A DNA stretch of 28,726 nt from a virus: the IMG/VR virus record IMGVR_UViG_3300024518_002942, positions 1 through 28,726 of that record; one strand, given 5' to 3'. The notes under the pieces are model-generated. The model had not been told where the DNA came from. It saw nothing but the letters and a program-made list of their open reading frames with translations, and searched no databases. A program made the position numbers and the translations under genes. Of this stretch, positions 7,297-26,399 are shown piece by piece. Numbering within the stretch: position 1 is the first letter of the stretch; the number at the start of each line of letters is the position of its first letter.

Positions 7297-7646
7297 CGCT
7301 TCGTCTCCTTCAGGCGCAACGACAGCGACCAACTGGTGGCGCTGTCTTGGATGATCTCGAGGTCGCTAACCATCCGGCACTCGACGATGGCGGTCCCATC
7401 CGGGGGGATGTAGTTCACCGACCCGACGCGCCCTACGGCCTCGTACGCGCGCTGAACCAGGTACGCCTTACCCTCCGAAGCGTTCGCCCATGTGAGGTCA
7501 AACGTACGGAGCGTGCGCCCCGTGAGGAGCGTCGGAAGGATGACCGACTCGGCGTCATCCAGGATGCCGCTGATCTGCGTCTCGTCCGTGTGATCGAACT
7601 CGGGGCAGATGTCGAGGTTGTCAACTCTAAGATCGACGAGGCTCAT
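7293..7646 (-). CDS. Small structural protein of the head-tail joining region
   Basis: This 117-residue protein is joined by ATGA overlaps to both neighbours. The sequence has one aromatic-rich strand region (RTLRTFDLTWANASEGKAY) and a closing amphipathic part (ATSWSLSLRLKE). There are no Cys pairs, membrane segments or catalytic motifs. I recognise no family. Lying between a gp10-like protein and the tail terminator, it is probably a minor neck or tail component. A DUF2460-like tail role is possible but unproved. Confidence 0.7.
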   Translation of the reverse strand: MSLVDLRVDNLDICPEFDHTDETQISGILDDAESVILPTLLTGRTLRTFDLTWANASEGKAYLVQRAYEAVGRVGSVNYIPPDGTAIVECRMVSDLEIIQDSATSWSLSLRLKETKR

Positions 7647-8973: not shown

Positions 8974-9278
8974 CAGAGATCAACCCCTTCCTCTTCCTCG
9001 CGGTCGCTCCAGGGGAACACCGCGTCTTCGTCCTCGGGATCCTCCTGGAGAGGCTCGTCCAGCGCGGGCTCTTCCGGCTCTGGTTCGGGCCGAGGGGCCA
9101 CAGGGGCAGCCTCGGGGACCTCCAGGACAAGGTCACCCTCGATCTCCTCGTTCACCGAGCAGACCTGGTTCGGGTACATCTTGGCGATGGGATCATCGTC
9201 GGGGAGCACGGTGCCCCTCGTCGCGTAGATCGTTCCGTCACTTGGGTTCGTCAGCGCCCGGAGTGCTTTGACCGGCAT
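8973..9278 (-). CDS. Small acidic head-region protein, function unknown
   Basis: This 101-residue protein starts at ATG 9278 with a very strong AAGGAGGA ribosome site, although the start lies 41 bases inside the preceding gene. The first 55 residues look folded (MPVKALRALTNPSDGTIYAT). The remainder is a Pro/Glu/Asp-rich tail with repeated PEPEPEEPA-type sequence. I recognise no family. Small proteins with acidic tails occur between capsid and connector genes of siphoviruses, some as head decoration or stabilisation proteins, but nothing here proves that role. Confidence 0.72.
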   Translation of the reverse strand: MPVKALRALTNPSDGTIYATRGTVLPDDDPIAKMYPNQVCSVNEEIEGDLVLEVPEAAPVAPRPEPEPEEPALDEPLQEDPEDEDAVFPWSDREEEEGVDL

Positions 9279-9738
9279 CGGAGTCCTCCTTGGGGGTCGT
9301 CGGGCGAGTCCGCTTCGTACGGCTACCCGTGGGGGTCGTGTCGAGGCCGGGCAGACCGCCAGCCTTGGGCTTGGGCTGATCCGCCGCGTTGTCCTTCAAC
9401 TTGTCGCGGCGCGAGCCACGGCGAACATCAAGGCGCTTGACCAACTTCTGATTGACGAGTTCGTTCAGGATCGGTCGCGGATAGCTCTGCTGGTCCTTGA
9501 CCTTCCCGCGAGCCTCGTCGAGCTCGCCTTTGGGCACGGGCTCGAGGAACCTCTCCTGCCCGAAGAGGAGCATCGACTCCTCCTTCCGATCTAGGTCCAC
9601 CACGTACCCAGCCTTTCCGCGATCTCGCATCGGGTGCTGGATGGGATTCATGATCGACTCGGGCCACTTGATGTTCTTTCCGGGCTTCACGCGCCAGAGG
9701 CCGGTCATCGTCGAAAGGTTCGTTGCGGGGCGTGCCAT
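9238..9738 (-). CDS. Unknown head-module protein with basic disordered C-terminus
   Basis: This 166-residue protein lies 75 bases after the capsid gene, with a strong hairpin between the two. Residues 1-75 appear folded (GLWRVKPGKNIKWPESIM, DRKEESMLLFGQERFLEPVP). Residues 95-166 are Lys/Arg/Pro/Thr-rich and probably disordered. No Shine-Dalgarno is visible; the ATG follows an AACCCCCGAAC element that also precedes the start at 17646. The function is not recognised. A capsid-associated or DNA-contacting minor head protein would fit the position and charge. Confidence 0.68.
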   Translation of the reverse strand: MARPATNLSTMTGLWRVKPGKNIKWPESIMNPIQHPMRDRGKAGYVVDLDRKEESMLLFGQERFLEPVPKGELDEARGKVKDQQSYPRPILNELVNQKLVKRLDVRRGSRRDKLKDNAADQPKPKAGGLPGLDTTPTGSRTKRTRPTTPKEDSDAGQSTPGADEPK

Positions 9739-9769
9739 GTTCTGTTCGGGGGTTTCGGGGGTGGTTGGG

Positions 9770-9793
9770 AGGCGGGGGCCGAAGCCCCCGCCT
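9770..9793 (-). promoter_or_regulatory. Stable hairpin after the capsid gene (UUCG tetraloop)
   Basis: AGGCGGGGGC and GCCCCCGCCT form a perfect 10-bp stem. On the minus-strand transcript the loop is UUCG closed by C-G, an exceptionally stable tetraloop. It begins about 20 bases after the capsid stop. No U-tract follows, so it is more likely an mRNA 3'-end stabiliser or partial attenuator between capsid and downstream genes than a full intrinsic terminator. Confidence 0.7.
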
Positions 9794-9813
9794 GTCAGCG
9801 ACTCAGCTCAGAC

Positions 9814-11097
9814 CTACAGGTGGGTCGAGCCGATCGTGAACGACTCGAGGTGGTCGATCGACACGTCGGCATACATGATGCCACGGACGAGCGTCTGGTC
9901 TTTCAGGAACGTGCTCGCGCCGACATCAGTCGTGCGGAGCTCCATCGTCTTCCAGAACGGGACGCGGATCTGACGCCAGTCGCCGAAGATGACGGTCTCT
10001 TCGTCGCCGGAGTAGGAGGTGTGCGCCAGGAGTGTCGTGGTGCGGATCGGGTAGCCGAGCAGGTTCGTGTTCGCGCCGTCAGACACGACGAGGCGGTTGA
10101 CATCGACATTCGAGGTGCCAGAGGTCATCTGGACAGCACGCGACCAGTCGGTCGGGTTCATGACCCAGCCGAGGCTTCCGCGCAGAGCGTTGACGTTCAT
10201 CAGGTCGGTGATGAACTCCATCGCCTCGTTGTAGGTCCACGCGGCTCCGATGCCGACAGCACCCGAGGCCAGCTCGCCCGACATGAGCGGGCTTGCGTTC
10301 AGCAGGCCGGTCGGGTTCGCGCCCGAGCCGCTGCCCTTGAGGACGGCGGTGTCGAGAGCCGTGCGGAACTGCTCGATGAGGTTGTCTCGGATGATGCCTT
10401 CAGCCATCGGTCGCGAGTTGCTCAGGAGCATGTTGGACACGCGGACGGCACCGGCCAGGCGACGGGGTCGCATGGTGTGCTCGCCGAACGTCGGGTCGGT
10501 CTCGCCGATCGTCGTGTTCTCATAGGACCACGTCGCCGAGGCACCTGAGAGCAACACGGGGATCGTGACGGTGCCGAACATATTCGGCATCGCGCGTGCA
10601 CCCGACTGGAAGACGACCGACTCTGCGTAGAACAGGTCGATGATCTCGTTCATGTGCTCTTCGGGCACAAGGTGGGGGCCGTTCAGCCCATCAGGAGACG
10701 CGACGTAGCCGGTATCGCCGGCCTTGGTCGAGACCGCAGCATCCTTGGTCTGCGCGGCGAGCCATGCGCCGCCATACTGCTTCTCCATGTTCTTGAAGCA
10801 CTCGAACTCGTACGGGGCGAGGTCGGGGTTCTTGAGACGGATGGCGTCGAGCGCGCGGGCGAACTCGAACTTCTGACCCTTCTCTTCGTTGACTCCGGGG
10901 AGGCTGAAGTTGGGGTTTTCCTTCGCGTACTGCGCGATGGCTTTCGGGACCAGCTCGTCGAGCATGTTGCTGACTTTCTGAGCAAGCTCGGTGTCGCGGT
11001 CGTCGAAACGCTTCGCGATCTCTCCGTTTAGGGTGGTCAGCAAGCCCTTGACGGCGTCTTGCTGCTCGGAGAACGATTTTTCTTGGGTGTCGGACAT
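9814..11097 (-). CDS. Major capsid protein, HK97 fold
   Basis: This 427-residue protein forms the icosahedral shell. Residues 1 to about 65 are helical and charged (a delta-like scaffolding region normally removed by the protease encoded upstream). From about 135 the order GPHLVPEEHMNEIIDLFYAE, SGARAMPNMFGTVTIPVL and ATWSYENTTIGETDPTFGEH is typical of the HK97 N-arm, E-loop and P-domain. The C-terminal half has LRGSLGWVMNPTDWSRAV, LLGYPIRTTTLLA and an end with VRGIMYADVSIDHLES. The start lies 18 bases after the protease stop without a clear Shine-Dalgarno, odd for the most highly expressed virion gene. The gene order portal-protease-capsid supports the call. Confidence 0.95.
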   Translation of the reverse strand: MSDTQEKSFSEQQDAVKGLLTTLNGEIAKRFDDRDTELAQKVSNMLDELVPKAIAQYAKENPNFSLPGVNEEKGQKFEFARALDAIRLKNPDLAPYEFECFKNMEKQYGGAWLAAQTKDAAVSTKAGDTGYVASPDGLNGPHLVPEEHMNEIIDLFYAESVVFQSGARAMPNMFGTVTIPVLLSGASATWSYENTTIGETDPTFGEHTMRPRRLAGAVRVSNMLLSNSRPMAEGIIRDNLIEQFRTALDTAVLKGSGSGANPTGLLNASPLMSGELASGAVGIGAAWTYNEAMEFITDLMNVNALRGSLGWVMNPTDWSRAVQMTSGTSNVDVNRLVVSDGANTNLLGYPIRTTTLLAHTSYSGDEETVIFGDWRQIRVPFWKTMELRTTDVGASTFLKDQTLVRGIMYADVSIDHLESFTIGSTHL

Positions 11098-11115
11098 AAC
11101 GGTGGTGGTTGAGGT

Positions 11116-12273
11116 TCAGTTCTGTTCGGAGCTGCCCAGTAGGGCGATGCGTGCCTGCTCGGCGACGCGCTCCATGAAGTTGTCCTCGCCGCGAGCGTCG
11201 GGATCCTGCGAGGGTTCGTCGAGCTCATCGCCCGCGCCCGTCGCCACCGCTTCAGCCTTCGTGAGGTTCGCAACCAACGTGTCAACGCAGGCCGTGAGTT
11301 TTTCGATCGCAGAGCGCGACTCCTGATCGAGCGCGACAAGTGTGCGCTCGGGGAGTTCGCGGCTGTCCGCCGACGGCTCTTCGCCGGGCGGGGTCTCGAC
11401 TACGGTCTTCTGGCGCTGCTCCGGGGGAGCCTCCGCAAGACTGTCGATCGTGTCGTGGTATTCGTCGGGGACGAAACCGCCCTGCTCGACGGACTCGCGC
11501 GTGACCGCGACGCTCTTCATCGCGAAGATGCGGCGGCGGTTGATGAGTTCTTCGTCCGTGGTGAAGTTGAGGGCTCGCTCGAGGTGCTGGACCATCTCGG
11601 GATCCCAGCCAAACTCCTCAGCCTTGCCGAAGATCTCGCGGCCAGCATCGACCATCTTCTTGCGGAGAGCGTTCTTGTTCGCGGGGACCGGAACGACGGA
11701 AAGCTCGAGGAGTTCCTGCTCCTGGTGCAGCACGCCCCACTCGCCGAGGCCGAGTTTCGTGCGCTCTTCGTCGCTCTTCGGGTACGTGAACGCCTTGGGG
11801 ATGAACCCAACGGAGACGCCAGGCAGAGCGCCGGCCTCGACCAGTTTGCGGACAGCGTCGGCGTGAGCGTTCGTGTCCGCGTCGTGGAAGACTGAATCCG
11901 TCATGAGCGCCTTGGCCCCGTTAGTCTTCCCCTTCCAGACATTGGAGACGTTGCCGATCGGAAGGCTCCTCTGGTCGTGAGCCCACAGGAGTTGCGGGTT
12001 CGACTTGAATCGGTCGAGCCCCCAGCCGGCGACGAGGATGATGTCGCCCATCGAGTCCACGGACTCGTCGCTTGCGACGTGCCGGAACTTCTGAGCCTTC
12101 TCGTCCCCAACGGCCTTGGTCGCCTCAACCTTGTGGGTTCCACCGACGAATCGGTAGTGCATCTCAGACCGATCGCCCTTGATGGCGACCATGTCTTCAC
12201 GCGAGAGGTCTTTCAGATCGTCGTTGGACGCTAGTCCGCATTGGATGCGCTGTGCGCGTTCGATGAGTTTCAT
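11116..12273 (-). CDS. Prohead maturation protease, S78 family
   Basis: The likely start is ATG 12273, seven bases after the portal stop, with AAGGA upstream; the open frame extends to 12342 but that part overlaps the portal end. The 385-residue product has the herpesvirus/HK97-type serine protease core: FRHVASDESVDSMGDIIL, the catalytic His in LLWAHD (residue 99), the catalytic Ser in LPGVSVGF (residue 154), then ELLELSVVPVPANKNA (about 187-202). The C-terminal 180 residues are acidic and helical and may act as an internal scaffold domain. It would cleave the capsid N-terminal region during head maturation. Confidence 0.93.
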   Translation of the reverse strand: MKLIERAQRIQCGLASNDDLKDLSREDMVAIKGDRSEMHYRFVGGTHKVEATKAVGDEKAQKFRHVASDESVDSMGDIILVAGWGLDRFKSNPQLLWAHDQRSLPIGNVSNVWKGKTNGAKALMTDSVFHDADTNAHADAVRKLVEAGALPGVSVGFIPKAFTYPKSDEERTKLGLGEWGVLHQEQELLELSVVPVPANKNALRKKMVDAGREIFGKAEEFGWDPEMVQHLERALNFTTDEELINRRRIFAMKSVAVTRESVEQGGFVPDEYHDTIDSLAEAPPEQRQKTVVETPPGEEPSADSRELPERTLVALDQESRSAIEKLTACVDTLVANLTKAEAVATGAGDELDEPSQDPDARGEDNFMERVAEQARIALLGSSEQN

Positions 12274-12280
12274 GGTCTGG

Positions 12281-14683
12281 TCAGTCCTTGACGATGGGTC
12301 GCGTGACGCAGCGACAGTTGATGACATCCTCGGGAGCACCAACTGGGTCGCCGGGGTGTTTCAGTTGAGAGGTATCCCTGAAGGAGTCGCCGACAGATCG
12401 GATGACTCCATCGAGGATCACGTGCGAATGGGGGCTTGCGTTGCGTACGTGGGAATCTCCAGAGGTCACCCATTGGTGCTCGGTAATTCCTTCGCGCGAC
12501 ATCATCTCGAACCGCGTGCCGCTGGCAGCGCGGTTTACTTCGGTGCGCGCGATCGTGCTCGCCCGAGCACTGCGCGACTTGAACACCTTCCTGAGCTCTC
12601 CCCGGATCTCGGGGAGGACTTGGCGCACATGCTCCTGGAGCGTCGCCATCGAGAAAGGTCTCTTCCTAAAGACGCGGACCAACGCATCGCGCACGTCGTG
12701 CTCGAGCGTCGTGTTGACAGCCTGGGAGAGTCGGATGCGCTGAGACTTCAGGTAGTCGAGAGCCCAGGGGTCGCTCGACGTAAGAGCGTCTGCGCCCAGC
12801 TCGACCGCGAACTCTTCACTCGCCTCGCGAAGCACGTTCGCAAGCGGACCCTTCAGCTTGTCGGCCAGCTTCGCGTTCCACTCCGCAACGTCGAGCAGCA
12901 GGATGTTGAGGAAGTTGGGGTCGTCGATGATGTTCTGCGGAGAGACGTGGACGCCAACCTTCTCGACGCTGGCAGTCCGGAAGCCTTCCGAGCCCTTCTC
13001 CGCGTAGTCCTCGACGCGCTTGATCTGAGCTGCGTTGTAGCGGCCCAGGTAAGCGTTCGCCGCCTTCCTAACTACGCGCTCGCCGGGCTCAAGGACGTTT
13101 GCCTCGTAGCCCTTGTGGTAGGTAGGGGGGGCCTCCTCGTAGTCACTGGACGCGGTCGTATCGTCGCCCTGGTGTTCCTTGGAGGAGACCCCTTTGCCAT
13201 CTGATCCGGTGGGACCGTTCGACCCGCTCTCGCCGCCGTTCGATCCAGGGAAGTCGTCTTCCTCTTCGCCGGAACCGCTGGAGGGAGCCTCCTGCCCGTT
13301 CTCGCCCGGCCCCTCATGGTTCTTCGATCCGCGCAGGGCGTCCTCTGCGGCGACGATGTTCGGGGGCAGCCATGCGATCTTGCCGAACTCGGTCTCGACG
13401 CCGACTAGGCCAACGATCTTCGCCGACTCGTCGTACGAGAGGCCGATGTTCGCCTGGCTCATCGAGATGGCGAGTTCGTGTTTCTTCTGGCTGTCGTCCC
13501 GGAGCGCCTCGACGTGCGAGGTGTCGAACCGCGCAATAAACCCGCGCGTGCGCGAGTCCTTCATACGCAGGATGAAATCGTTGTTGATCACGTCTTCGAT
13601 CGACGCAAGCAGCGCAAGGACTCCGTTGCCGTTCTGCCAGAACTGCGCGACGGCGGTCGCGTAGTTTGAGTAGGTCGCTTCCTCGAGTACGCCGAGCACC
13701 GGGAGCGGGACGCCAAGGATCGCAGCGGTCTTGTTCCGGACTGCCATGAGCAAGTCCTTGAACTCCATGTCGCGCGGGCCGAACTTCGCAGCCTCGTACT
13801 TGACCTTGCCCGAGATCACGCGCCAGCGGCCCTTGTTCTCAAGAGAGAACTCGTCGGCTGCCTGCCGCTCGGCTGCACGCTCTTCCTCTCGCGACAACTC
13901 CTCTTCGTTGATGATGTAGCCGCCAGGGTCTCCCGAGTTGGCGAGCATCGCCTCGAGGTATCTCTGCGCGCCGAACTCGAGCGCGAGGTCTCGAAGTAGA
14001 ACCTCAACGTCGCCGAGTCCGCGCAGCGGGTTCGCCGGGTCGTAGTCGGCGAACTGCACAACGGCAGGCGACGGGAACCGCGTCTGGTCCTTGCTCGGGT
14101 AAACCCAGCCGGCAGGGAATCCGTTCTTCCCAGGGATCTCATCGACGGTCGATCCCTTCACCGGGATGATGAAGGCGGGCAGGTCAATCCTTCCGTCTCC
14201 ATCGGGCTCGAGGGGGTGCTTCGTTCGGTCAAAGCAGAACCAGAAGTCTTCGCCGTCGATCTTCCTGTGGAGCGTCGCGGCTTCCCAGAACTTCGCCGCA
14301 GTCATGAACTGGTTCGGGCGGCGGAAGAGATTCACGATCGGGTGGTCGGTGACCTCCCTCGCGCTCGCGTCCTCTTGCGGATCGACTTCGTAGAATCGCA
14401 ACTTGCAAGACCTCACCGCCGAGCTGATCGCCTTCAGCGCAACGTGGACCCAGCCAGCCTGCTCGTACGGGCGCTCGATGTTCTCGCCGCCCGCGTACCT
14501 GGCCTCGCCAGACAGGACGGTTCCCATCCAGTTTCCGTTGCCGCCAGCGGGACTTTCCCACTCAGCGACGGTACGGGCCTCGATGGAGGTCCCGTTAGTG
14601 CGGACGAAGGGCTTCGCCCGCGTGGGCCTTGGGGCGGTCTTAGCGACCATCCACTCAGGTTTTGCGGTTCGTGAGGCGATCAC
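12281..14683 (-). CDS. Portal protein fused to a MuF-like head morphogenesis domain
   Basis: This 800-residue protein has two parts. Residues about 60-440 are an HK97-type portal, with WVHVALKAISSAVRSCKLRF, HPIVNLFRRPNQFMTAAKFW, NPLRGLGDVEVLLRDLALE and AAILGVPLPVLGVLEEATYS. A Gly/Ser/Asp/Glu-rich linker follows at about 465-530. The C-terminal domain carries the Mu gpF signature: STIARTEVNRAASGTRF (709-725), GDSHVRN and an HS-rich box (742-755), then LKHPGDP and NCRC (775-792). The portal is the DNA channel at one head vertex; MuF domains often travel inside the head and are usually separate genes. The listed start is GTG at 14683; ATG at 14650 (MVAKTAPRP) is an equally possible start 11 codons later. 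Confidence 0.93.
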   Translation of the reverse strand: MIASRTAKPEWMVAKTAPRPTRAKPFVRTNGTSIEARTVAEWESPAGGNGNWMGTVLSGEARYAGGENIERPYEQAGWVHVALKAISSAVRSCKLRFYEVDPQEDASAREVTDHPIVNLFRRPNQFMTAAKFWEAATLHRKIDGEDFWFCFDRTKHPLEPDGDGRIDLPAFIIPVKGSTVDEIPGKNGFPAGWVYPSKDQTRFPSPAVVQFADYDPANPLRGLGDVEVLLRDLALEFGAQRYLEAMLANSGDPGGYIINEEELSREEERAAERQAADEFSLENKGRWRVISGKVKYEAAKFGPRDMEFKDLLMAVRNKTAAILGVPLPVLGVLEEATYSNYATAVAQFWQNGNGVLALLASIEDVINNDFILRMKDSRTRGFIARFDTSHVEALRDDSQKKHELAISMSQANIGLSYDESAKIVGLVGVETEFGKIAWLPPNIVAAEDALRGSKNHEGPGENGQEAPSSGSGEEEDDFPGSNGGESGSNGPTGSDGKGVSSKEHQGDDTTASSDYEEAPPTYHKGYEANVLEPGERVVRKAANAYLGRYNAAQIKRVEDYAEKGSEGFRTASVEKVGVHVSPQNIIDDPNFLNILLLDVAEWNAKLADKLKGPLANVLREASEEFAVELGADALTSSDPWALDYLKSQRIRLSQAVNTTLEHDVRDALVRVFRKRPFSMATLQEHVRQVLPEIRGELRKVFKSRSARASTIARTEVNRAASGTRFEMMSREGITEHQWVTSGDSHVRNASPHSHVILDGVIRSVGDSFRDTSQLKHPGDPVGAPEDVINCRCVTRPIVKD

Positions 14684-14702
14684 GACCCGCTGGTTACGGG
14701 AC

Positions 14703-14735
14703 GACTGGAGTCAAGTCCAGTCTTGTAATACACTC
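14703..14735 (+). promoter_or_regulatory. Inverted-repeat operator and -10 element upstream of the RHH gene
   Basis: GACTGGA (14703-14709) and TCCAGTC (14716-14722) are perfect 7-base arms with a 6-base spacer. A TGTAAT box at 14724-14729 matches the sigma70 -10 at five of six positions and is placed right before ATG 14742; no good -35 is visible. Ribbon-helix-helix proteins commonly bind such repeats and repress themselves, so autoregulation is inferred. The minus strand of the same repeat contains TTGACT, a possible -35 for the divergent portal operon. Confidence 0.45.
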
Positions 14736-14741
14736 CGTGGT

Positions 14742-14948
14742 ATGGGTATACGCTTCGGCCACATCAAGGAGGGGGGGCACCAGGGGGAGCGTCTGAGCAA
14801 GATGATGCCCGTCCGGCTGACCCCGTCGCAGCACCAGGGAGTGGTCCGTGCGGCCCGTGAGACCGGATTGACGGCCTCCGAGTTCGTCCGGCGCAGCGCG
14901 GAAGAGGCGCTCCGCAGGCGCGAGGCGGTGCGGCGGATCAAGCCGTAA
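14742..14948 (+). CDS. Ribbon-helix-helix DNA-binding protein
   Basis: The 68-residue product starts at ATG 14742; the open frame extends upstream to 14403, but that section only mirrors the portal gene. Residues 22-58 (MPVRLTPSQHQGVVRAARET, then GLTASEFVRRSAEEAL) have the strand-helix-helix order of Arc/CopG/MobC-type RHH proteins: a short strand with alternating residues, then two helices with an xSEFVRxSAxxAL second helix. It is the only plus-strand gene between late minus-strand blocks, divergent from the portal and convergent (five-base gap) with the MptE-like gene. A local repressor or late-region switch is the simplest role. Confidence 0.82.
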   Translation: MGIRFGHIKEGGHQGERLSKMMPVRLTPSQHQGVVRAARETGLTASEFVRRSAEEALRRREAVRRIKP

Positions 14949-14953
14949 CAGGC

Positions 14954-15625
14954 TCAGACCCCCGGTGGAAGATTCATCAGTTTCACGCCGTTCTTCTCAC
15001 AAGCATCTCGGCTTCTCGTCATCAGCGAGCGTTCGCCCGCCCAGCGTTTGATCCACTTGGCCTCGCGGCCTTTCGCGGCGCTGCGGATCGAGTCCGTCGC
15101 GCAGGCGTCGTGATATCCGAAGCCGCCGAGGTCGCACCCCACGAAGTAGACGTGAGAGAAGCGCCGGCGCACCGCCCAGGAGATCGCCATCGTTGAGCTG
15201 TACCGAGGTCCGCTCTTGATCGCGACTCGCAGCCACGTTGGTCCGTCGTCAGCGATCTCTATCGCGGGCCACTCGAAATGCGGGATCCCCAGATTCTTCA
15301 GCCACTTCTCCCAGCCTTTCACGCGCTCTTTGTTCGTGACGATCGTGGGGCGCAGTTTGAGGAACGCCTCGCGTGCGTGGTCGTGGATGTGGTTGGGCGT
15401 GTCATAGCAGATCCACCAGTCGCAGCGCGTGAGCCCCTTGAGGGCCACGTTGATCGCTGCGACCGGCAGGTCGTCCGGCAGGTCGTCCGGATGAAAGGAC
15501 GGGCCGGGGCAGGCTAGGGCTAACCCGCGCGTCTCACCCTCTGGATCACGGCTAGGACATCTTCGGGGTAGATCCTCCCCATCGCGTCCGTGCAGTGATC
15601 GCAGGTCCGACTCATTGATCCGCAT
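14954..15625 (-). CDS. MptE/DUF115-like Rossmann protein
   Basis: This 223-residue protein shows the phage MptE-like pattern: a GPS loop (LALACPGPSFHPDDLPDDLP), a second strand VAAINVALKG, a long middle with a WICYDTPNH motif, then HVYFVGCDLGGFGYHDAC where the GxDLGG box is typical. Such proteins occur in glycan-modification gene clusters; the real substrate is not known. The only canonical start in this frame is ATG 15625, which has an AGGGG ribosome site but overlaps the upstream GT9-like gene by 106 bases. The first 30 or so residues are Arg-rich and precede the GPS loop. A perfect 12-base direct repeat encodes PDDLPDDLP. Confidence 0.72.
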   Translation of the reverse strand: MRINESDLRSLHGRDGEDLPRRCPSRDPEGETRGLALACPGPSFHPDDLPDDLPVAAINVALKGLTRCDWWICYDTPNHIHDHAREAFLKLRPTIVTNKERVKGWEKWLKNLGIPHFEWPAIEIADDGPTWLRVAIKSGPRYSSTMAISWAVRRRFSHVYFVGCDLGGFGYHDACATDSIRSAAKGREAKWIKRWAGERSLMTRSRDACEKNGVKLMNLPPGV

Positions 15626-16323
15626 GGCGACCCCTCGGTCTCGACGTATAGGTTTTCATGTTCTGGATACCCCAGGATGTTCGGATCTGATCGTCCGCCC
15701 CAGATGACGACTGCCGGGATCTTGAGCGCCGCTGCCGCGTGGTGCAGGAACCCCTCGGAGCAGAGCACGGCCCCCGCGAAGGACATGATAGCCATAGCCA
15801 TCCGGACCTCTTCCTGCACGCGACCCGAGACGCCGAACATCGTCGGTGCTCTTCCGGGCGACATCTGGACGGTCTGAACTTGCGACACGCGCAGCTTGCC
15901 GACTACGCGGATCCAGCCGCTCATCGGCCACTCCTTATTCGTGCCAGAGAACGTCCCCTTCACGTAGGGGTCGAACGCAACGAACCCCGGCTCGACCTCG
16001 CGGTCAGACATCCACTCGCGGGCACGCTTGAGCTCGTCGTCGGTGAAGTGGAACGATCCGCGCATGGGCGTGTAGCTCGATCGCAGCACCTGCTTCGATC
16101 CTCCCGACCTGGCGTAGTCGATGTAGGGGCGATGCCCTGGGCAGTTCAGAAGGCTGACCGCGCCCTTTGCGCTCTCGCCTCTCTGTATCAGCCACGGAAC
16201 CTTCTCAAACACCGGGCTGAACCGCTGCTTGCCTGTCGAGTCGATGATCTTCACCTTCCTCTCGGCGTTGCGGTGCAGTCGCTCGGCCTCGGCAACGGCT
16301 ATCAGTTCATCACCTAGTCCCAT
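15520..16323 (-). CDS. GT9-like (heptosyltransferase-type) GT-B protein
   Basis: This 267-residue protein has the C-terminal half of a GT-B glycosyltransferase. AVLCSEGFLHHAAAALKIPA and VVIWGGRSDP (residues 186-214) correspond to the GT9 nucleotide-sugar site, usually xDSGxxHLAxAL followed by GPTxP; here Glu190 stands in the usual Asp/Ser region. A Cys cluster CGSMSRTCDHC lies near 235-246. The chain is shorter than typical heptosyltransferases (about 320-350), with a reduced N-terminal domain, so acceptor binding may be unusual. ATG 16323 follows GGAGG closely and overlaps the upstream stop by 14 bases. Likely donor and acceptor are unknown. Confidence 0.75.
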   Translation of the reverse strand: MGLGDELIAVAEAERLHRNAERKVKIIDSTGKQRFSPVFEKVPWLIQRGESAKGAVSLLNCPGHRPYIDYARSGGSKQVLRSSYTPMRGSFHFTDDELKRAREWMSDREVEPGFVAFDPYVKGTFSGTNKEWPMSGWIRVVGKLRVSQVQTVQMSPGRAPTMFGVSGRVQEEVRMAMAIMSFAGAVLCSEGFLHHAAAALKIPAVVIWGGRSDPNILGYPEHENLYVETEGSPCGSMSRTCDHCTDAMGRIYPEDVLAVIQRVRRAG

Positions 16324-16909
16324 GCGACCTCCAGAGGGCTTGGCCCTTTACGGTTCGTCCGATCCACTGACCCTTCAGTTCTTTCCACTCAAGCCAATTC
16401 TCCATCGCCGCCCACTGCCCCGCTCTCCACTCCGGGTAACCGTAGAGGTCATCGAAGAGCAGCAGAGCGCCGGCGTGATCCAGCCGGTCGTGCAGAGAAC
16501 CGAGAACGCAGAGCGTGGACGAGTAGATGTCACAGTCGAGGTGCGCGAGGTCGATCCTCCCGACCTCGCGGTCTACCGTGTCCGCGAACCACCCCTTGTG
16601 AAGGTGGACGCGGTGGTCGTCGAACTCAGGAACCGGGCAGGCGAAGTGCCCAGCCCGCGTGATCTCAACGAGCTCATCGCTATCCGACCTCACCCAGTCA
16701 TCAGGCAGACCTTCCCATGAGTCGTACAGGTGTAGCTCACCGTCCGGCTTCAGCATCTTGAGTAGGTGTCTGGCGCTCTTACCTTCGCGCACGCCAAACT
16801 CGGCCCATCGCGTGCCCGCCGACTCAACTGCTGCGAACGCGCGCAACTCCTTGCGGCTTCCGAACAGGGGCGCGACCGCTACTTCTTCAGGGATCGAATG
16901 GTTCGGCAT
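16310..16909 (-). CDS. TylF-like class I SAM methyltransferase
   Basis: The 199-residue protein has the TylF/macrocin-O-methyltransferase layout: WAEFGVREGKSARHLLKML (about 35-53, the SAM glycine region), LYDSWEGLPDDW (about 61-72), a DLAHLDCDIYSST box (about 119-132) with acidic residues that bind a metal or substrate in relatives, and GALLLFDDLYGYPEW. Family members O-methylate sugars. It overlaps the previous methyltransferase by 31 bases and the GT9-like gene by 14, so it is part of the same transcript. Sugar methylation in the encoded glycan is the inferred role. Confidence 0.85.
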   Translation of the reverse strand: MPNHSIPEEVAVAPLFGSRKELRAFAAVESAGTRWAEFGVREGKSARHLLKMLKPDGELHLYDSWEGLPDDWVRSDSDELVEITRAGHFACPVPEFDDHRVHLHKGWFADTVDREVGRIDLAHLDCDIYSSTLCVLGSLHDRLDHAGALLLFDDLYGYPEWRAGQWAAMENWLEWKELKGQWIGRTVKGQALWRSHGTR

Positions 16910-17646
16910 CTGTCGATGAAGGCGTGATGGCTAGCAAGAGGGAAGGACTTTCGCATGGCCCCTCGGTCTTGAAAGAGAACCCCAGCGGACGGGTTCCGAG
17001 TGGCCGATGCGAGAATGATCTTCCCGCCCGTCGGGGGCTTGTGCGGAGCGATCGGGTGTGGGTTGTTCACCGGACCTGTCTGGTCGTACAGATCTACCCC
17101 GCCGAAGCCGCACAGCTCGAGAAGGTCCAGGAAGTTTGACGGCGTGTAGTGCCTCAAGTGGAACGGGTTCGAGTCGAGGCGGTGCGGCTCGACGTTGATG
17201 TTGGGCACCGAGAAGAAACATCTCGAGTCCGGCCTCGTCTTCACCCAGAGGTCCACAAGGAAGAGTTCCGGCATGACCAGGTGCTCGATGACCTCGAAGC
17301 AAACCGCAGCGGTGAACCCCGCCTCCAGGTTCTCGAGCGAGTGGAGTTCGTGGTGCTCGAAGTCTAAGTTGGGGCGCTCTTCGCCCCAGTAGTGCTTCGC
17401 GAGCTCGACGGACTCCTCACTAACGTCGATGCCGGTCGTGTGCTCTGAGGCTTCAGCCAGCAGCGCCGATCCGTATCCCGTTCCGCACCCAGCGTCGAGG
17501 ACTCGCTCATGGCCCTCTAGTTGGCTCGCGGCCCACCTGTACCGTTGCGTGTGGTTTGCCTTGATGGCGTCGTGCGTTACACCGTACTGGCGCTCGCCAG
17601 TCGGGATCATGCGCTCTCTGAGTAACTGTGCTTCTGATGCGTTCAT
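16879..17646 (-). CDS. SAM-dependent methyltransferase, paralogue A
   Basis: This 255-residue protein starts at ATG 17646 (MNASEAQLLRERMIP). Motif I is VLDAGCGTGYGSALLAEA (about 46-63), followed by TGIDVSEESVELAKHYW and FEVIEHLVMPELFL. It is a paralogue of the next upstream gene over its whole length, with shared AKHYW, FEVIEHL, NPFHxRHYT and DRCRxIR blocks. No Shine-Dalgarno is seen; an AACCCCCGAAC element precedes the ATG as at 9738. The substrate is probably a sugar or glycan precursor, judging by neighbours, but the Methyltransf_11/23 class also acts on many other small molecules. Confidence 0.87.
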   Translation of the reverse strand: MNASEAQLLRERMIPTGERQYGVTHDAIKANHTQRYRWAASQLEGHERVLDAGCGTGYGSALLAEASEHTTGIDVSEESVELAKHYWGEERPNLDFEHHELHSLENLEAGFTAAVCFEVIEHLVMPELFLVDLWVKTRPDSRCFFSVPNINVEPHRLDSNPFHLRHYTPSNFLDLLELCGFGGVDLYDQTGPVNNPHPIAPHKPPTGGKIILASATRNPSAGVLFQDRGAMRKSFPLASHHAFIDRCRTIRSLKK

Positions 17647-17660
17647 GGTCAGTTCGGGGG

Positions 17661-18425
17661 TTAGGGGGCGGCGTCCTTGACGCCTTGCGCCACGCGGATC
17701 GCGCGGCATCGGTCGATCATCGCATCCTGAAACTTCTGGGGCAGGAGGCCCGTGAGGTGACCGATAGCGAGGCGATCCATCTCATAGTACGGGTCAACGA
17801 TGCCAGCGCAGATCACGATCTTTCCGTCAGCGTCGTCCGGTGTGTGGCGGATCTCTTCTGAGCCGCTCTGCGAGAACGTCCCGATGACGTTGAACCCGCA
17901 AGCCACCAGCATTTGCCGTAACTCCTGGGCGGTGTAGTGCCGGATGTGGAACGGGTTCTTAGCGACGCTGTGAGCCTTTACGTTTGAGTTCGGCGAGCTG
18001 ATGAAGATGGTCCCGCCTGGGCCGATCTCTTTGCGTACGCGCAGCAGGAACAACTCTGGCAAGACCAGGTGCTCGATGACCTCGAAGGCGACGACGCTAG
18101 AGAACGATGCAGCCGAGGTGAAGCCGTGCAACTCGCGGTGCAGGAACCGAACCTTCGGGTGCTTCCAGTAGTGCTTCGCGAGGCTGACCGTTTCGAGGCT
18201 GACATCCATCCCAACGACAGACGCTACCCGCTCTGCAAGAACCGTCGATCCGTAGCCGACGCCGCACCCGGCGTCGATCACGTCGTCCCTGTCGCTAACG
18301 ATGTCCCGCGCCCACACATAGCGGTTGAGGTGCGCGCCCTTGATCTGATCGAGAGTCAGCGGGAACTGCCGCTCGCCACGGCGCTGCATCAGCCTTCTAA
18401 GAGTTTGCGCTTCAGTCTTTTCCAC
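17661..18425 (-). CDS. SAM-dependent methyltransferase, paralogue B
   Basis: The start is taken as GTG 18425: it has an AAAGGA ribosome site six bases upstream, and the resulting VEKTEAQTLRRLMQRRGERQ aligns with the start of paralogue A. The longer frame to 18485 would overlap the upstream gene by almost 100 bases. The 254-residue product has VIDAGCGVGYGSTVLAER, GMDVSLETVSLAKHYW, FEVIEHLVLPELFL and NPFHIRHYT. Tandem duplication with paralogue A followed by divergence is evident. A pair of closely related enzymes could methylate two positions of one sugar or two sugars of a chain. Confidence 0.85.
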   Translation of the reverse strand: MEKTEAQTLRRLMQRRGERQFPLTLDQIKGAHLNRYVWARDIVSDRDDVIDAGCGVGYGSTVLAERVASVVGMDVSLETVSLAKHYWKHPKVRFLHRELHGFTSAASFSSVVAFEVIEHLVLPELFLLRVRKEIGPGGTIFISSPNSNVKAHSVAKNPFHIRHYTAQELRQMLVACGFNVIGTFSQSGSEEIRHTPDDADGKIVICAGIVDPYYEMDRLAIGHLTGLLPQKFQDAMIDRCRAIRVAQGVKDAAP

Positions 18426-19288
18426 GGGGTTCCTTTTTCGATCTCGGGGATCGTCCATTGGGTGTAGGCGAGCTCGGCCAGCCATTGGTACTTCCTGGAG
18501 TCGTCAGCAAGCCACGGGTCGGTCAGCCGACCGAGGTGGTGGTTGGCGACATCGTACGCGGGGCTTCCTGTATCCATCGCCCACGTTGGAACTCCAGCGC
18601 AGATCGACTCGATCGCGCTCAGGCTTGTGAACGTGATGACGGCGCACGCGCTTTCCAGATCGCGTGCCAGGCCCTTCGCGGACAGGTCGTTGGAGAGTTC
18701 CGCGTAGGAGGGGGGCGTGAACGACTCGCGGTCGAGCGGGTGGGGCCGGATAATGATCCGTAGGTCCGGCGCGTTCACCTTGACCTGCGCCGCCATCGAC
18801 CTCGCCCAGTTGCGCACGTCTACCCCACGGAGGCTCGCGTCGGTGTTCTTCTGGAGCATGATAAGGGCGCTGTCGCCGCCGTGCTTCCAGTCGCGGACCT
18901 CGATCCCTTGCTTCTCGGCGATCATGTCGAACCGATCGCCGTCCACTCCCTCGTTGGCATAGTCGGCCTCGTCGCGCAGGAACCCGTTGAGGCCAACGCG
19001 CCAGAACTCAACCGGATCAACATTGAGCCCTTGACGGAAGCAAGGCGACTCGATGACTACGCGGCTCTTCGGGTGGATCTGGATCAGCGTCGAGCGGTCA
19101 GTAGAAAGCCTCGAGTCCCTCAGCCGGCCACTCTTCACGCCGCTCGCGTGCACCGCGACATCGCAGGGATCGAAGAGGTCCGTCGTGAACTCGCAGTCAT
19201 CGCCAACAGCAAGGCATCCCTTCCGGAACGCCTCGAACGCCGGTCGCCCGCCTGAGCTGATCGCGGGTGTCATGATTCGTACTTTCAT
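18389..19288 (-). CDS. Capsule-type glycosyltransferase-like protein
   Basis: ATG 19288 overlaps the upstream stop as ATGA, giving 299 residues; the frame continues to 19651 but only as a shadow of the neighbour. The C-terminal half shows a GT-B/KpsC-like pattern: LRIIIRPHPLDRESF, then the strand-loop ESACAVITFTSLSAIESICA, then GVPTWAMDTGSPAYDVANHH and a closing YTQWTIPEIEKGTPWKRLK that resembles phage and capsule glycosyltransferases. The RPHP and TFTSLSAIE blocks are the strongest evidence. It most likely transfers a sugar from a nucleotide donor; the acceptor is not known. Confidence 0.75.
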   Translation of the reverse strand: MKVRIMTPAISSGGRPAFEAFRKGCLAVGDDCEFTTDLFDPCDVAVHASGVKSGRLRDSRLSTDRSTLIQIHPKSRVVIESPCFRQGLNVDPVEFWRVGLNGFLRDEADYANEGVDGDRFDMIAEKQGIEVRDWKHGGDSALIMLQKNTDASLRGVDVRNWARSMAAQVKVNAPDLRIIIRPHPLDRESFTPPSYAELSNDLSAKGLARDLESACAVITFTSLSAIESICAGVPTWAMDTGSPAYDVANHHLGRLTDPWLADDSRKYQWLAELAYTQWTIPEIEKGTPWKRLKRKLLEG

Positions 19289-19974
19289 CGGATCGCGTCC
19301 TTGAGTGGTCGGTATGGAAATGTTCTGAGGGCAGACGCCTTGTTGCAGTTCCAGACGTTCGAGGATCCGTACAGAGGCACGCGATCGAAGTCGTTCCGGT
19401 AGGTGTCGTAGTGGGACTCTGGTGGTCGCATGTTGTCTGGGTAGTAGTCGTGGAAGTTTACCGTCCTCCCCTTCTCGCCCCGCATGTCGAACCCAATCAG
19501 GTAGATGTTCTCTGCGCCAAGAATGTCGGCCATATTGACCGCCACCAGGCCGCTGTTCGAGAAGACGGGCACGCCGGTAATGAAGTCGGAACCCCACTCT
19601 TCCTGCGAGCACTCCATCACGTGGCATCCGTACTGGCTCTTCGTGTTCCAAACCATCGCCTCGAGCGCCGCTCGCACGCCGACGATGTCGTTGAAATCGG
19701 CTTCTCGCGAAGCTCGCATCAGGAGCAGGATCGAGCCGAAGTACGCGATCGTTGGCTTCGCCGCTCGGTATCCCATGTTGACGGTGATGACCTTGCGGCC
19801 CTCGAGCACGGAGAGGTCGTGGTCGAGCACAGACGGGCCACCGCCGACAATGAACACGTCTTCTCCAATCCAGTCGAGGTCGGCAAAACTGTCGTTGAAC
19901 CTGGGTTTGTGCACCCTTGGGAGTTGACCGCTATTCAAGCGGGTGAAGTAGTTGTCTCGCTGCCAGGATCCCAT
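19285..19974 (-). CDS. MptE/DUF115-like Rossmann protein, second copy
   Basis: This 229-residue protein has the same general pattern as the gene at 14954-15625 but is clearer: VFIVGGGPSVLDHDLSVLEG, VITVNMGYRAAKPTIAYFGS, then VFSNSGLVAVNMADILGAEN, IYLIGFDMRGEKG and NFHDYYPDN. The GGGPS loop and IGFDMxG box define the family. Proteins of this kind occur in phage and bacterial glycan loci; some bacterial relatives act in flagellin or surface glycosylation, but the phage function is unresolved. It joins both neighbours through short overlaps. Confidence 0.82.
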   Translation of the reverse strand: MGSWQRDNYFTRLNSGQLPRVHKPRFNDSFADLDWIGEDVFIVGGGPSVLDHDLSVLEGRKVITVNMGYRAAKPTIAYFGSILLLMRASREADFNDIVGVRAALEAMVWNTKSQYGCHVMECSQEEWGSDFITGVPVFSNSGLVAVNMADILGAENIYLIGFDMRGEKGRTVNFHDYYPDNMRPPESHYDTYRNDFDRVPLYGSSNVWNCNKASALRTFPYRPLKDAIR

Positions 19975-20378
19975 CAGGCTTTGAACCTTTCCCAGTTGTT
20001 GTCCGGTCGAGCCTTCAGCTCACGCGCGAATGCCTGGAGGTCTTTAGGGTTCGCGAACGTGATGACATCCACGGAGTAGAACCCCAGAGCCTCTGCGGCG
20101 AGTAGCCGCTGGTTCCCGACCTCAACAACAAGAAGGCTGCCGTCGATGTCGCGCCCGCGCGGGTACTCTGCGCGCTTAGGCTTCACCGACTCCCATGCCT
20201 CCCACTCATGCTCGAGGTATCGGCGGGCGAGCAACGGGAAGCGCATCCCAAACGAGACCACGTCGTCAATCAGGTCTCGCAGCGTAGGCCAGTCGCTCGG
20301 CCACCGAACCTTCGGGGTTAGGTGTTCAACAGCGACCATGCGCGCGTTGGGGAACTCGATATTGGCGGCGAGGTGCAT
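19974..20378 (-). CDS. ParB/sulfiredoxin-like domain protein
   Basis: ATG 20378 overlaps the GT8-like stop as TGATG, giving 134 residues; the longer frame to 20582 is Arg-rich shadow. The sequence follows the ParB N-terminal layout: WPTLRDLIDDVVSFGMRFPL, then SLLVVEVGNQRLLAAEALGF and YSVDVITF. In ParB-like proteins the equivalent G(N/E)xRLxAxxxLG segment contacts nucleotide. The N-terminal G(E)RR-type box is not obvious. Stand-alone phage ParB-like domains can be nucleases, NTPases or regulators. Its place within a glycan cluster is unusual, and its role there is unknown. Confidence 0.68.
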   Translation of the reverse strand: MHLAANIEFPNARMVAVEHLTPKVRWPSDWPTLRDLIDDVVSFGMRFPLLARRYLEHEWEAWESVKPKRAEYPRGRDIDGSLLVVEVGNQRLLAAEALGFYSVDVITFANPKDLQAFARELKARPDNNWERFKA

Positions 20379-21139
20379 CAGTCTCGTCCGTCCATGATCA
20401 GCTCGCCATCGAACTCGAGCTCTTGCGCGAGAAGGGCGATCCTCCGGTATGTCTTCACCGCCGCATAGTCCCGGTGCGACGGGCGACCGAACTGCGCCTC
20501 GTACGGATACCACGGCTGCGTGCGCGCGTTCGTGTAGTGCACCAGTCCGGTGTTCGCGACGACCTTGTCGGGCTCGTTCCAATGGCGCGACATCGACGGG
20601 TCGATGAGCCCGCGCTTTTGGAGGATCGACCGCAACTCGTACATGGTGCCGGACCCCTGCTTCTGTTCAGAGATCGAGGGCCACCAATCCCACGTGCTAA
20701 ACGCAGCGCAATCGAGGACCATCACGCACGCTTTCATCTGCGAGAGGTAAACCGGTTTTGGCGTGGCCCTACCTTCCTCCCACAGTTCGCGGGGATCCTT
20801 GAGAAAGAACTGGTCGCAATCGCAGTAGATCGCGTGGCCCTCGAAATTCCGGAACTCAGGGACGGCCCAGCGGAAGTGCGTGAACGGCGTTCCCCATCCC
20901 CCGCTCTTCGGGTACACGTCGCCGAACTCGCACCCGGTATTCCACGATCCGTCTAGGCCGTCTTTGGATGTCTGCCAGGTGCCGCCCTTGATGAGGTGGT
21001 CGCTTGACGGCGTCGCGCGCATCCAATGCAACTTGTACGGGCCGGTGGCGACCGCCTGCACCGCAGCGGCGAAGAGTTTTTCACCGCCAGCTCGACGTTG
21101 AAGATCGTCCGATCCGACGCAGATGTGCAGGGTGTCCAT
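20378..21139 (-). CDS. GT8-like (GT-A fold) glycosyltransferase
   Basis: This 253-residue protein has the DxD sugar-nucleotide/metal motif in AIYCDCDQFFLKDPRELW (Asp107-x-Asp109), with preceding FTHFRWAVPEFRNFEGHAIY, typical of GT8-like enzymes. Downstream LSQMKACVMVLDCAAF and DKVVANTGLVHYTNA match the region that completes the active site. It would use a UDP- or similar nucleotide sugar with Mn2+ or Mg2+. It is the first gene of the glycan cluster, 18 bases after the winged-helix regulator stop, so it is probably on that transcript. The start is ATG 21139 with only a weak ribosome site. Confidence 0.82.
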   Translation of the reverse strand: MDTLHICVGSDDLQRRAGGEKLFAAAVQAVATGPYKLHWMRATPSSDHLIKGGTWQTSKDGLDGSWNTGCEFGDVYPKSGGWGTPFTHFRWAVPEFRNFEGHAIYCDCDQFFLKDPRELWEEGRATPKPVYLSQMKACVMVLDCAAFSTWDWWPSISEQKQGSGTMYELRSILQKRGLIDPSMSRHWNEPDKVVANTGLVHYTNARTQPWYPYEAQFGRPSHRDYAAVKTYRRIALLAQELEFDGELIMDGRD

Positions 21140-24231: not shown

Positions 24232-25433
24232 CATGGCTAATCCCTACCGCCCTACGTCCCTCAGCCTGTGCTCAGGCATCGGGGGCCTCGACCTTGGAGT
24301 TGACGCCGTACTCGGAACCCGAGTTCTGGCCTTCTGTGAGCGGGATCCCTATGCAGCGACCGTCCTCCTGGAGAGGATGGAAGACGAGAGCATGGAGCCT
24401 GCGCCTGTTTGGTGCGGCGATGTCCGTGAACTCGACCTCGCTCCGTTCGTGGGTCGAGTCGATGTCGTCACCGCCGGATATCCGTGCCAGCCGTTCAGCG
24501 TCGCCGGGAAGCGCAACGCCGAAGAAGACTCCCGACACCTTTGGCCCGAAGTCCTCCGCGTGGTTCGCGAAGTGGGAGCGCGGGTCTTGGTTGCCGAGAA
24601 CGTCCGAGGGCACCTTTCCCTGGGCTTCGACCGAGTTCTCGCTGATCTTGCCGATGCGGGGTTCGATGCGGAGTGGACGGTTGTTCGAGCGTCGGACGCA
24701 GGAGCCCCTCACCGACGCGAGCGGTTGTTCATCGTGGCCTACGCCAATCGTGGGGGATTCACACTTGAGCAGTACGCCAGAGGCAGCACGCCGACGGCTT
24801 GCGGAGGGGAAGGCAACGCTATCGCGGGTAGTGCAGTCGAGGAACTGGCCTACGCCGATGTGGCCGACGGCGACAGCGGGCGACGCGCGGGCGGCGGGCT
24901 CGAGGACGAACGCGAGCAGCGCGGCGAACGACGGTGTGTCGCTGACGGACGCGGTGATCGGGTCGAGGGGTGGGGACGACCTAGCCCCCCGGTGGGCGAC
25001 GCCGAACGCCCGCGACTGGAAGAGCGACGGGCCGGATCACTCCCCGGATCATTCCCCGCCCCTTGGCCGCCAAGTCCTTCAGGAGACTGGGCCGGCATCC
25101 CCGAGTGGTGCCACCCCGCCGTGGCCGACCCCCCAAGCGTCAGACGAGAAAAGGGACAGGGCGTCTACGGCGCAAAAGACACGACACCGGGACCGACCCA
25201 ACAGCAGCAGGGATCTACCAGTAGACGCAGCCCTTCACAACAACCCCACCAAAGAGAACCGGCGACTCAACCCGACCTTCGTGGAGTGGCTGATGGGATT
25301 CCCTCCGATGTGGAGCTCGCCCAGGAGTTCCGCGTGGACCGACTCCGAACCCTTGGCAACGCCGTCTGCCCCGCGCAAGCGGAGGCCGCAATCACCGAAC
25401 TGCTTGAGAGGAACTGATGAGACGAGGAAATGA
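24228..25433 (+). other. Second open frame overlapping the whole methyltransferase gene
   Basis: A 401-codon frame runs from ATG 24228, which overlaps the preceding stop as ATGA, to 25433 inside the next gene. Its C-terminal two thirds contain SSWPTPIVGDSH, RNWPTPMWPTATAGDARAAG, WATPNARDWKSDG and NPTFVEWLMGFPPMW. From memory these phrases resemble a phage protein family often annotated as DNA methyltransferase. The same bases read in the other frame give FIVAYAN and RGVADGIPSDV. It may be a translated overprinted gene or a consequence of conserved codons. I treat it as unproved. Confidence 0.3.
24233..25417 (+). CDS. C5-cytosine DNA methyltransferase
   Basis: This 394-residue enzyme transfers a methyl group from SAM to C5 of cytosine in DNA. 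Visible motifs: I, LCSGIGGLDLG (12-22); IV, GYPCQPFSVAGKR with catalytic Cys85; VI, ENV (122-124); VIII, RRERLFIVAY (161-170); X, RVDRLRTLGNAVCPAQAEAA near 368-387. Residues about 172-345, where the target recognition domain should lie, are rich in Arg, Gly and Pro and poor in hydrophobic residues. A second frame overlaps the full length (see 24228-25433). The stop overlaps the next ATG as TGATG, so it is in the operon. It probably protects phage DNA from host restriction; no cognate nuclease is seen. Confidence 0.9.
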   Translation: MANPYRPTSLSLCSGIGGLDLGVDAVLGTRVLAFCERDPYAATVLLERMEDESMEPAPVWCGDVRELDLAPFVGRVDVVTAGYPCQPFSVAGKRNAEEDSRHLWPEVLRVVREVGARVLVAENVRGHLSLGFDRVLADLADAGFDAEWTVVRASDAGAPHRRERLFIVAYANRGGFTLEQYARGSTPTACGGEGNAIAGSAVEELAYADVADGDSGRRAGGGLEDEREQRGERRCVADGRGDRVEGWGRPSPPVGDAERPRLEERRAGSLPGSFPAPWPPSPSGDWAGIPEWCHPAVADPPSVRREKGQGVYGAKDTTPGPTQQQQGSTSRRSPSQQPHQREPATQPDLRGVADGIPSDVELAQEFRVDRLRTLGNAVCPAQAEAAITELLERN

Positions 25434-25758
25434 CGACGGCGCGTACTTTGAGGAGTGGTTTGCCGAGTGTTCGGTTGAGAAGCCCAAGCACGGCATCCAT
25501 CCCGAAAAGCATAGGGCTATATCCATGCTGGCCTTCGAGGCTGGGCGTCGCGCCCCCGCGCCCCCGTGTCCGTTCTTCACTTCCTGGGCTCGCTACGGGG
25601 TGCACAACCTCGTCGGTCACCCGGTCATGTGGATGTTAGGCGTAGCGGGTATGCGCCGCGCCGCGCTCTGGGTCCACGAACGCACACTCCCAAGGAACGT
25701 GCGTGGCTTGCCTCTACGCCAGGCGATTGAAGCCGGGGAGCTGTTCAAATGCTCGTAA
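25417..25758 (+). CDS. Unknown 113-residue protein
   Basis: ATG 25417 overlaps the methyltransferase stop as TGATG. The first half is charged (AYFEEWFAECSVEKPKHGIH, EKHRAISMLAFEAGRRAP). The second half holds an aromatic, His-rich stretch FFTSWARYGVHNLVGHPVMW followed by MLGVAGMRRAALWVHERTLP. The VGHPVMWMLGVAGM part is hydrophobic and could dip into a membrane, though it is short and contains His. No family was recognised. Confidence 0.7.
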   Translation: MRRGNDDGAYFEEWFAECSVEKPKHGIHPEKHRAISMLAFEAGRRAPAPPCPFFTSWARYGVHNLVGHPVMWMLGVAGMRRAALWVHERTLPRNVRGLPLRQAIEAGELFKCS

Positions 25759-26399
25759 TGCCCGCAAACAACGGCAAGTGGCAGGTCCACTACTGGCAAG
25801 GTCTCTACGGCGGTCTCGGACACCTGTATGGCCCCGGTCGAACCTTCGCTCCGATGCCGCACTTGCCGTACGCGCTAGACAATGGAGCGTTCCCGGCATG
25901 GACGAACGGAACGGAGTGGGACGAGGAGTCGTTCCTGCTTCACGTTGAGCGAGCAGCGGTTCAGTTGGCGCTCGGGAACCCCCCGAGGTGGATCGTTGCC
26001 CCGGATGTGGTGACGGACGCCAAGGCGACCCTTGCCCGCTGGCCCGCCTGGCGAGAAGTGATCGAGTCGCGCGGCCTCGTCGCGGCGCTTGCCGTGCAGG
26101 ACGGGATGACCATTGAGGTCGTGAAGGAGCTAGACCCCGCCGTAATTTTCGTGGGGGGCTCAACGGAGTGGAAGTGGCTCTGGCTTGAGCGGTGGTGCGC
26201 CGCCTTTCCTCGAGTCCATGTCGGCAGAGTGAACACCCACAAGTGGCTCACGCGCTGCCACAACGCTGGCGCTGAGTCTTGCGACGGAACGGGTTGGTTC
26301 CGTGGCCGGCGCGAACAGCTCGAAGGGCTGAGGCTTTACCTTGAACAACAATCCCAGGGGCTGGTCCCCGCTGACCGGGGACTCTTCGCTGATGACTGA
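25749..26399 (+). CDS. Short tRNA-guanine transglycosylase-like protein (TGT/DpdA-like)
   Basis: This 216-residue protein looks like a reduced TIM-barrel TGT. YALDNGAF (41-48, Asp44) matches the DSGGFQ region with its catalytic Asp; WIVAPDVVTD lies at 81-90; LAVQDGM (114-120) matches the QGG box; IFVGGSTEW (133-141) matches GGLxxGE; RVHVGRVNTHKWLTRCHNAG, then SCDGTGWF (177-184, Asp179), match the last catalytic strand. TGTs exchange guanine for 7-deazaguanine in tRNA, and DpdA relatives do so in DNA. Bacterial TGT is about 375 residues with a Zn site; no complete CxCxxC site is seen here. Lying after a DNA methyltransferase favours a DNA role. Starts: ATG 25749 (GGGGAG upstream) or 25758 (TAATG). 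Confidence 0.65.
   Translation: MLVMPANNGKWQVHYWQGLYGGLGHLYGPGRTFAPMPHLPYALDNGAFPAWTNGTEWDEESFLLHVERAAVQLALGNPPRWIVAPDVVTDAKATLARWPAWREVIESRGLVAALAVQDGMTIEVVKELDPAVIFVGGSTEWKWLWLERWCAAFPRVHVGRVNTHKWLTRCHNAGAESCDGTGWFRGRREQLEGLRLYLEQQSQGLVPADRGLFADD

Follow-up and report, generated by a model that had tools for sequence, protein, structure and literature searches.

Phage DpdA (phrog_887), known from Enterobacteria phage 9g, CAjan and Rosebush, inserts 7-deazaguanines into DNA; its loss made CAjan DNA digestible, and His196 (9g numbering) is its diagnostic mark (PMC6884629). A second type, DpdA2 of Vibrio phage nt-1, is likewise related to the tRNA-guanine transglycosylases (TGTs), acts on DNA and lies in a preQ0 cluster, but is without His196 (PMC6884629). 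Here we analysed a viral contig of 28,726 nucleotides (IMGVR_UViG_3300024518_002942, the whole of which we call the window) and found a gene for a 216-residue protein that is, with a probability of roughly two in three, a compact DNA-guanine transglycosylase which would add a third, shortened type to phage DpdA and DpdA2, exchange of guanine for a 7-deazaguanine in DNA being the most likely chemistry at about the same overall probability. On this reading the protein adds a compact variant to DpdA rather than defining a separate kind of system, and its clade may already bear a published name.

The open reading frame (ORF) starts with ATG and overlaps the preceding 113-residue ORF by 10 bp, and the methyltransferase, 113-residue and transglycosylase genes look like one operon (Table 1). 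The initial annotation, made from the letters alone, had proposed a short TGT/DpdA-like enzyme near a DNA methyltransferase, and this arrangement was confirmed, with the PF00145 gene one small gene upstream. Dozens of viral contigs and bacterial genomes hold relatives at 40-58% identity, and this, together with a match to phrog_15826 ("unknown function") at E 4.7e-34 in a PHROGs profile search, indicates from sequence that 25749-26399 is a real gene. The DpdA profile phrog_887 ("queuine tRNA-ribosyltransferase") matched the protein weakly when it was searched alone (E 0.028) and in the search of the window (E 8.6e-4), and matched relatives at E 1e-8 to 1e-4, the family forming a separate PHROG. 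No Pfam or NCBIfam model matched the 216-residue product, phmmer and profile searches against PDB sequences gave chance matches only, and PF01702 (TGT) was absent from the window even at E 10 while it matched in 14 of 14 control genomes. The kinship with TGT and DpdA is therefore visible only by profile-profile or structure comparison. Elsewhere in the window, between the portal and early genes (15520-19974, minus strand), SAM methyltransferase genes and weak matches to glycosyltransferase-9, MptE-like and capsule-synthesis-like proteins form an unusual cargo beside the phage head module.

Table 1. Coordinates of the transglycosylase locus and of its conserved active-site positions, in window numbering ("60/60", invariant in the 60-sequence family alignment).
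Feature	Position	Strand	Basis
C5-cytosine DNA methyltransferase	24233..25417	+	PF00145 E 1.2e-34; phrog_363 E 6.7e-64
113-aa ORF, weak phrog_36447 match	25417..25758	+	overlaps methyltransferase and transglycosylase genes by a few bases
GGGGAG, ribosome-binding-like	25735..25740	+	read directly; 8 nt 5' of ATG of the 216-aa ORF
Compact TGT/DpdA-like transglycosylase, 216 aa	25749..26399	+	phrog_15826, AF2 model, VIA-align, hhalign to phage DpdA
Asp44 codon (DNG box)	25878..25880	+	60/60; aligned with 9g DpdA Asp72 (LDSGAF)
Asp86 codon (PD box), predicted guanine-binding, = TGT D156	26004..26006	+	60/60; 9g DpdA Asp114 equivalent
QDG box, Gln117-Gly119	26097..26105	+	Q117 and G119 60/60; matches TGT VQGG; His141 in 9g DpdA
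Gly136-Gly137 (VGGS box), base-binding loop	26154..26159	+	60/60; hhalign with GG of TGT and DpdA
His157 codon	26217..26219	+	60/60; hhalign with DpdA-diagnostic His196
Asp179 codon (CDGTGW box), predicted nucleophile, = TGT D280	26283..26285	+	60/60; 9g DpdA Asp215

An AlphaFold2 model built on the 60-member family alignment (mean pLDDT 95, pTM 0.91) predicts a complete minimal (beta/alpha)8 barrel of eight short strands (residues 2-4, 25-27, 41-43, ~81-82, 112-116, 132-135, 156-158 and 177-179), with the conserved residues at the strand ends. Foldseek ranked human TGT first (E 6e-5) amid mixed TIM barrels, and after VIA-align re-ranking of the top 1000 chains each of the best 50 listed was a TGT, archaeosine TGT included (Z 14.0-14.3, ~207 residues aligned, 3.4-3.9 A). 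The model thus did not show a fold unrelated to TGT, the outcome that the initial annotation had named as counting against its reading. Several phage DpdA proteins were among the best matches to the model in a viral structure library. The profile comparison with both enzymes that had been proposed as a check came out in the same direction: aligning the family profile with four phage DpdA proteins in hhalign gave E 1.5e-7 and a score of 57 over 144 columns, with the catalytic residues in register (D44-D72, D86-D114, Q117-H141, GG-GG, H157-H196 and D179-D215, 9g numbering second), compared to scores of ~23 or less among the column-shuffled controls listed. Against nine TGTs the score was 31 (E 0.0019), also above the listed shuffles, with VQDG placed on VQGG. 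Consistent with these alignments, Rinkes gp3, a canonical phage DpdA, matches phrog_15826 (E 5.8e-5). DpdA2 is longer (464 residues), and no profile similarity between it and the family was detected (hhalign probability 0.1%, with the single nt-1 sequence used); among the viral structures matching the model, an nt-1 protein as long as DpdA2 was listed at E 7e-3. The fold and profile comparisons thus identify the family, on predicted structure and alignment, as a shortened TGT relative that is nearer to DpdA than to TGT, and a TGT/DpdA-type fold and active site in the 216-residue protein appears near certain.

The boxes that the initial annotation had placed in TGT order (Asp44, QDGM, VGGS and CDGTGW with Asp179) proved to be the conserved core of the family, to which the DNG box also belongs, in the order seen in TGT and DpdA. 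Twelve positions are invariant in the 60 sequences: D44, N45, P85, D86, Q117, G119, G136, G137, K142, H157, S177 and D179. Asp44 is presumably the counterpart of the general acid/base Asp of TGT (D102 of the Zymomonas mobilis, Z. mobilis, enzyme), and hhalign aligned Asp179 with the SCDSSSW motif of DpdA and the FDC of TGT. The invariant Lys142 was considered as a stand-in for Glu235 of TGT and dropped, as the profile alignment puts Glu140 there. The family shares with phage DpdA the fold class, the catalytic Asp pair, the GG loop, the His196 equivalent, a SCD(S/G)(S/T)(S/G)W box, the lack of a zinc motif and, in many viral relatives, a place beside QueD, QueE or QueC genes, but differs from it in size (~215 versus ~290-317 residues), in missing the extra DpdA segments, and in carrying Gln117 for His141 and DNG for DSG.

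To learn how the gene is accompanied in its relatives, 50 viral contigs with a family member were searched over their full length for QueD, QueC and QueE. QueD (PF01242, over cut-off) was present in 17 contigs, QueC (PF06508, over cut-off) in 6 and QueE (TIGR04508, E <1e-5) in 5, only one of the QueE matches lying above the model's own cut-off, and NCBIfam scans of sampled contigs agreed with these assignments. At least one Que gene was found in 20 of the 50 contigs, always adjoining the TGT-like gene or at most about two genes away, and QueD was absent from 30 unrelated viral control contigs. The gene order is QueD, TGT-like, QueE, QueC in contig L019, QueD, QueE, TGT-like in L020, and QueD, QueC, TGT-like in five others (L022, L025, L045, L053 and L057); in a Verrucomicrobiales contig (L101) QueC lies immediately 5' of the TGT-like gene. 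The viral members nearest to the window protein (L018, L019, L020 and L026) all have adjacent Que genes. Under random placement, and treating as independent contigs that are not fully so, the chance of finding all 17 QueD genes this close is ~1e-13. On a maximum-likelihood tree of 73 family members, whose labels predate the QueE search and score L018, L026 and L054 as unlinked, Que linkage changes nine times, with at least six changes forced by well-supported branches, indicating that the linkage recurs. The sole phrog_887 match in the 50 contigs was the short gene itself, so that no other DpdA was found there to use the precursor. The QueD/QueE/QueC operons of the relatives strengthen the idea that the family would exchange guanine for a 7-deazaguanine.

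The window itself yielded no QueC, QueD or QueE in the profile search, as the initial annotation had stated. Its suggestion to search the rest of the genome could be followed on a second contig, IMGVR_UViG_3300024520_000197, which is 99.97% identical to window positions 2285-21034 and adds 18.5 kb leftward: preQ0 genes just past the left end of the window were considered on this basis and rejected, none being recognisable in the added sequence. The phage sequence covered in this way comes to ~47 kb and ends rightward at window position 28726; a RecT-like gene lies near the far end of the second contig. In L097, the nearest relative of the window phage, no Que genes were seen either. Given that neither the window nor the 18.5-kb extension holds preQ0 genes, the enzyme of the window phage probably uses host precursor, a source that the initial annotation had also named. 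A host supply is plausible for many bacteria, since 16 of the 18 genomes carrying a relative also encode a tRNA TGT.

The neighbourhoods also bear on an unlikely alternative, that base exchange or removal takes place on free nucleosides or nucleotides, either making deoxy-7-deazaguanosine for the polymerase or hydrolysing dG nucleotides. In seven contigs (L003, L005, L066, L072, L075, L080 and L085) the TGT-like gene is immediately preceded by a gene for a PF05014 nucleoside 2-deoxyribosyltransferase-like protein (E 1.1e-10), which may supply the base in another way; at 216 residues the barrel offers almost nothing beyond its core for holding nucleic acid; and PMC6884629, which reports a heavily preQ1-modified virus without DpdA, leaves a route through free nucleosides or nucleotides open. 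However, homology and active site match enzymes that act on nucleic acid, and no deoxynucleotide kinase was recognised among the recurrent neighbours.

Still less likely is an RNA target, with the protein acting as a short phage TGT on host or phage tRNA and the Que genes raising the supply of queuosine precursors. Among solved folds TGT comes closest, sharing with the family the barrel (Z ~14), the active-site order and the VQ(D/G)G and GG boxes, Gln117 fits the TGT motif and not the His of DpdA, and TGT enzymes are reported to act on RNA hairpins (PMC10103133). Set against this, the zinc/tRNA-binding subdomain is missing from all members: the CxCxxC motif was present in none of the 60 family sequences compared to nine of nine TGTs, and the median family length of 215 residues is little over half the ~370-390 of bacterial TGT, bearing out what the initial annotation had said about both the zinc site and the size. 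Moreover, the sequence link is far stronger to DpdA than to TGT, the equivalent of the DpdA His196 is invariant, and in many contigs the gene lies among replication, primase, polymerase and DNA methyltransferase genes, all of which speaks against an RNA target.

The family extends well beyond Que-linked phages, with at least 80 viral loci and 65 loci in the genome collection. Searches by tblastn matched 23 phage records, of which several carry the annotation "DpdA-like tRNA-guanine transglycosylase", and 181 plasmid records. Pseudomonas accounts for 146 of the plasmid records, many being megaplasmids of 160-500 kb; among the matches listed, nearly all plasmid members are annotated as hypothetical. 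The proteins of Fishburnevirus mycobacteriophages and Arthrobacter phages that bear the DpdA-like label belong to the same family (phrog_15826) and have no preQ0 genes directly adjacent, the full DpdA and QueC of Arthrobacter phage Sonali lying ~2.4 kb off. Near the short gene of the isolate StevieRay, too, no Que genes were seen. The member in Erythrobacter phage ZS04 (L008, 5887-6525) is labelled "DarB-like antirestriction protein" in GenBank, a label that the family profile does not support (phrog_15826, E 1.9e-83).

Several branches do not fit a single role. Twelve mycobacteriophage records carry a family member by tblastn, and mycobacteria are without the Q pathway (PMC6884629). The short protein coexists with a full DpdA and preQ0 genes in Sonali and the queuovirus phiG7, and in Vibrio phage R29Z it accompanies a preQ0 gene cluster; in these phages, therefore, it is not simply a replacement for DpdA. 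In the plasmid and chromosome branch (Burkholderiales, Pseudomonas) the gene lies near DndC-like PAPS reductase genes (25 loci) and SMC/SbcC-like and SbcD-like genes (SMC/SbcC-like at 25 loci), not near Que genes. Four such loci from Caballeronia, Paraburkholderia and Pseudomonas (L106, L112, L129 and L183) show the DndC-like PAPS reductase with an SMC/SbcC-like ATPase and an SbcD-like phosphatase, a ParB-type HTH accompanying the DndC-like gene in L129 and Ku and LigD following in L183, and the whole looks like an undescribed gene set. A PAPS reductase gene also adjoins the member in Rhodococcus phage ReqiPine5. The family may thus have more than one role, and it is to the viral, Que-linked members, which include the window protein on the tree, that the assignment to 7-deazaguanine applies. 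The negative mass spectrometry for the DpdA-only phage Orion (PMC6884629) was considered as counter-evidence and set aside, as no cluster B1 phage was found with family members in our tblastn searches and the Orion enzyme therefore seems to be of another family.

Whether bases differ between lineages can be put in two ways. It is doubtful, though conceivable, that the family is a minimal DNA transglycosylase that chooses its own substrates, with 7-deazaguanines installed where Que genes are linked in phages, an additional base or motif where a phage already has DpdA, and a base other than deazaguanine in the plasmids and chromosomes with DndC-like and SbcC/SbcD-like genes. That the window enzyme itself shares a non-7-deazaguanine activity of the plasmid and chromosome branch, as the DndC-like and SMC/SbcC-like neighbours and the ReqiPine5 locus might suggest, is less probable than either alternative above, because on the tree the window protein falls among the viral, Que-linked members and not in that branch. 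A degenerate or regulatory protein without catalysis, for which its very short length for a TGT and the split copies in phiG7 and SHIN8 could be cited, is highly improbable given that all catalytic and base-binding positions are invariant (60/60). The split genes of these two E. coli phages consist of two overlapping ORFs (phiG7, L013 4881-5473; SHIN8, 24434-24999) next to DNA polymerase and clamp genes, and may reflect a frameshift, a sequencing error or a real split.

For the compact DNA-guanine transglycosylase that we favour, the analogy with TGT suggests the following course. A deoxyguanosine would flip into the barrel top, where Asp179 would attack its C1'. Asp86, Gln117 and the Gly136-Gly137 loop would hold the guanine as it leaves, to be replaced by a 7-deazaguanine, either preQ0 or a different intermediate of the pathway, and the glycosidic bond would be re-formed with Asp44 as acid/base, so that the base would be exchanged rather than removed. 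Many relatives would make the precursor with their own QueD, QueE and QueC, and the window phage would draw on that of its host. From the CAjan precedent (PMC6884629) we infer an anti-restriction purpose: the modified bases would protect the phage DNA against restriction nucleases of the host, alongside cytosine methylation by the methyltransferase encoded two genes upstream.

If this reading is correct, a bare barrel of 215 residues suffices for guanine exchange in DNA, and as a scaffold for exchanging DNA bases the protein would be very small. The phrog_15826 family, of "unknown function" and spread over many environmental phages and the 181 plasmid records, would then be a candidate DNA-modifying, anti-restriction enzyme, and operons of the QueD-TGT-QueE-QueC type make the claim directly testable. 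7-deazaguanine modification of DNA would extend to phages that are currently counted as unmodified.
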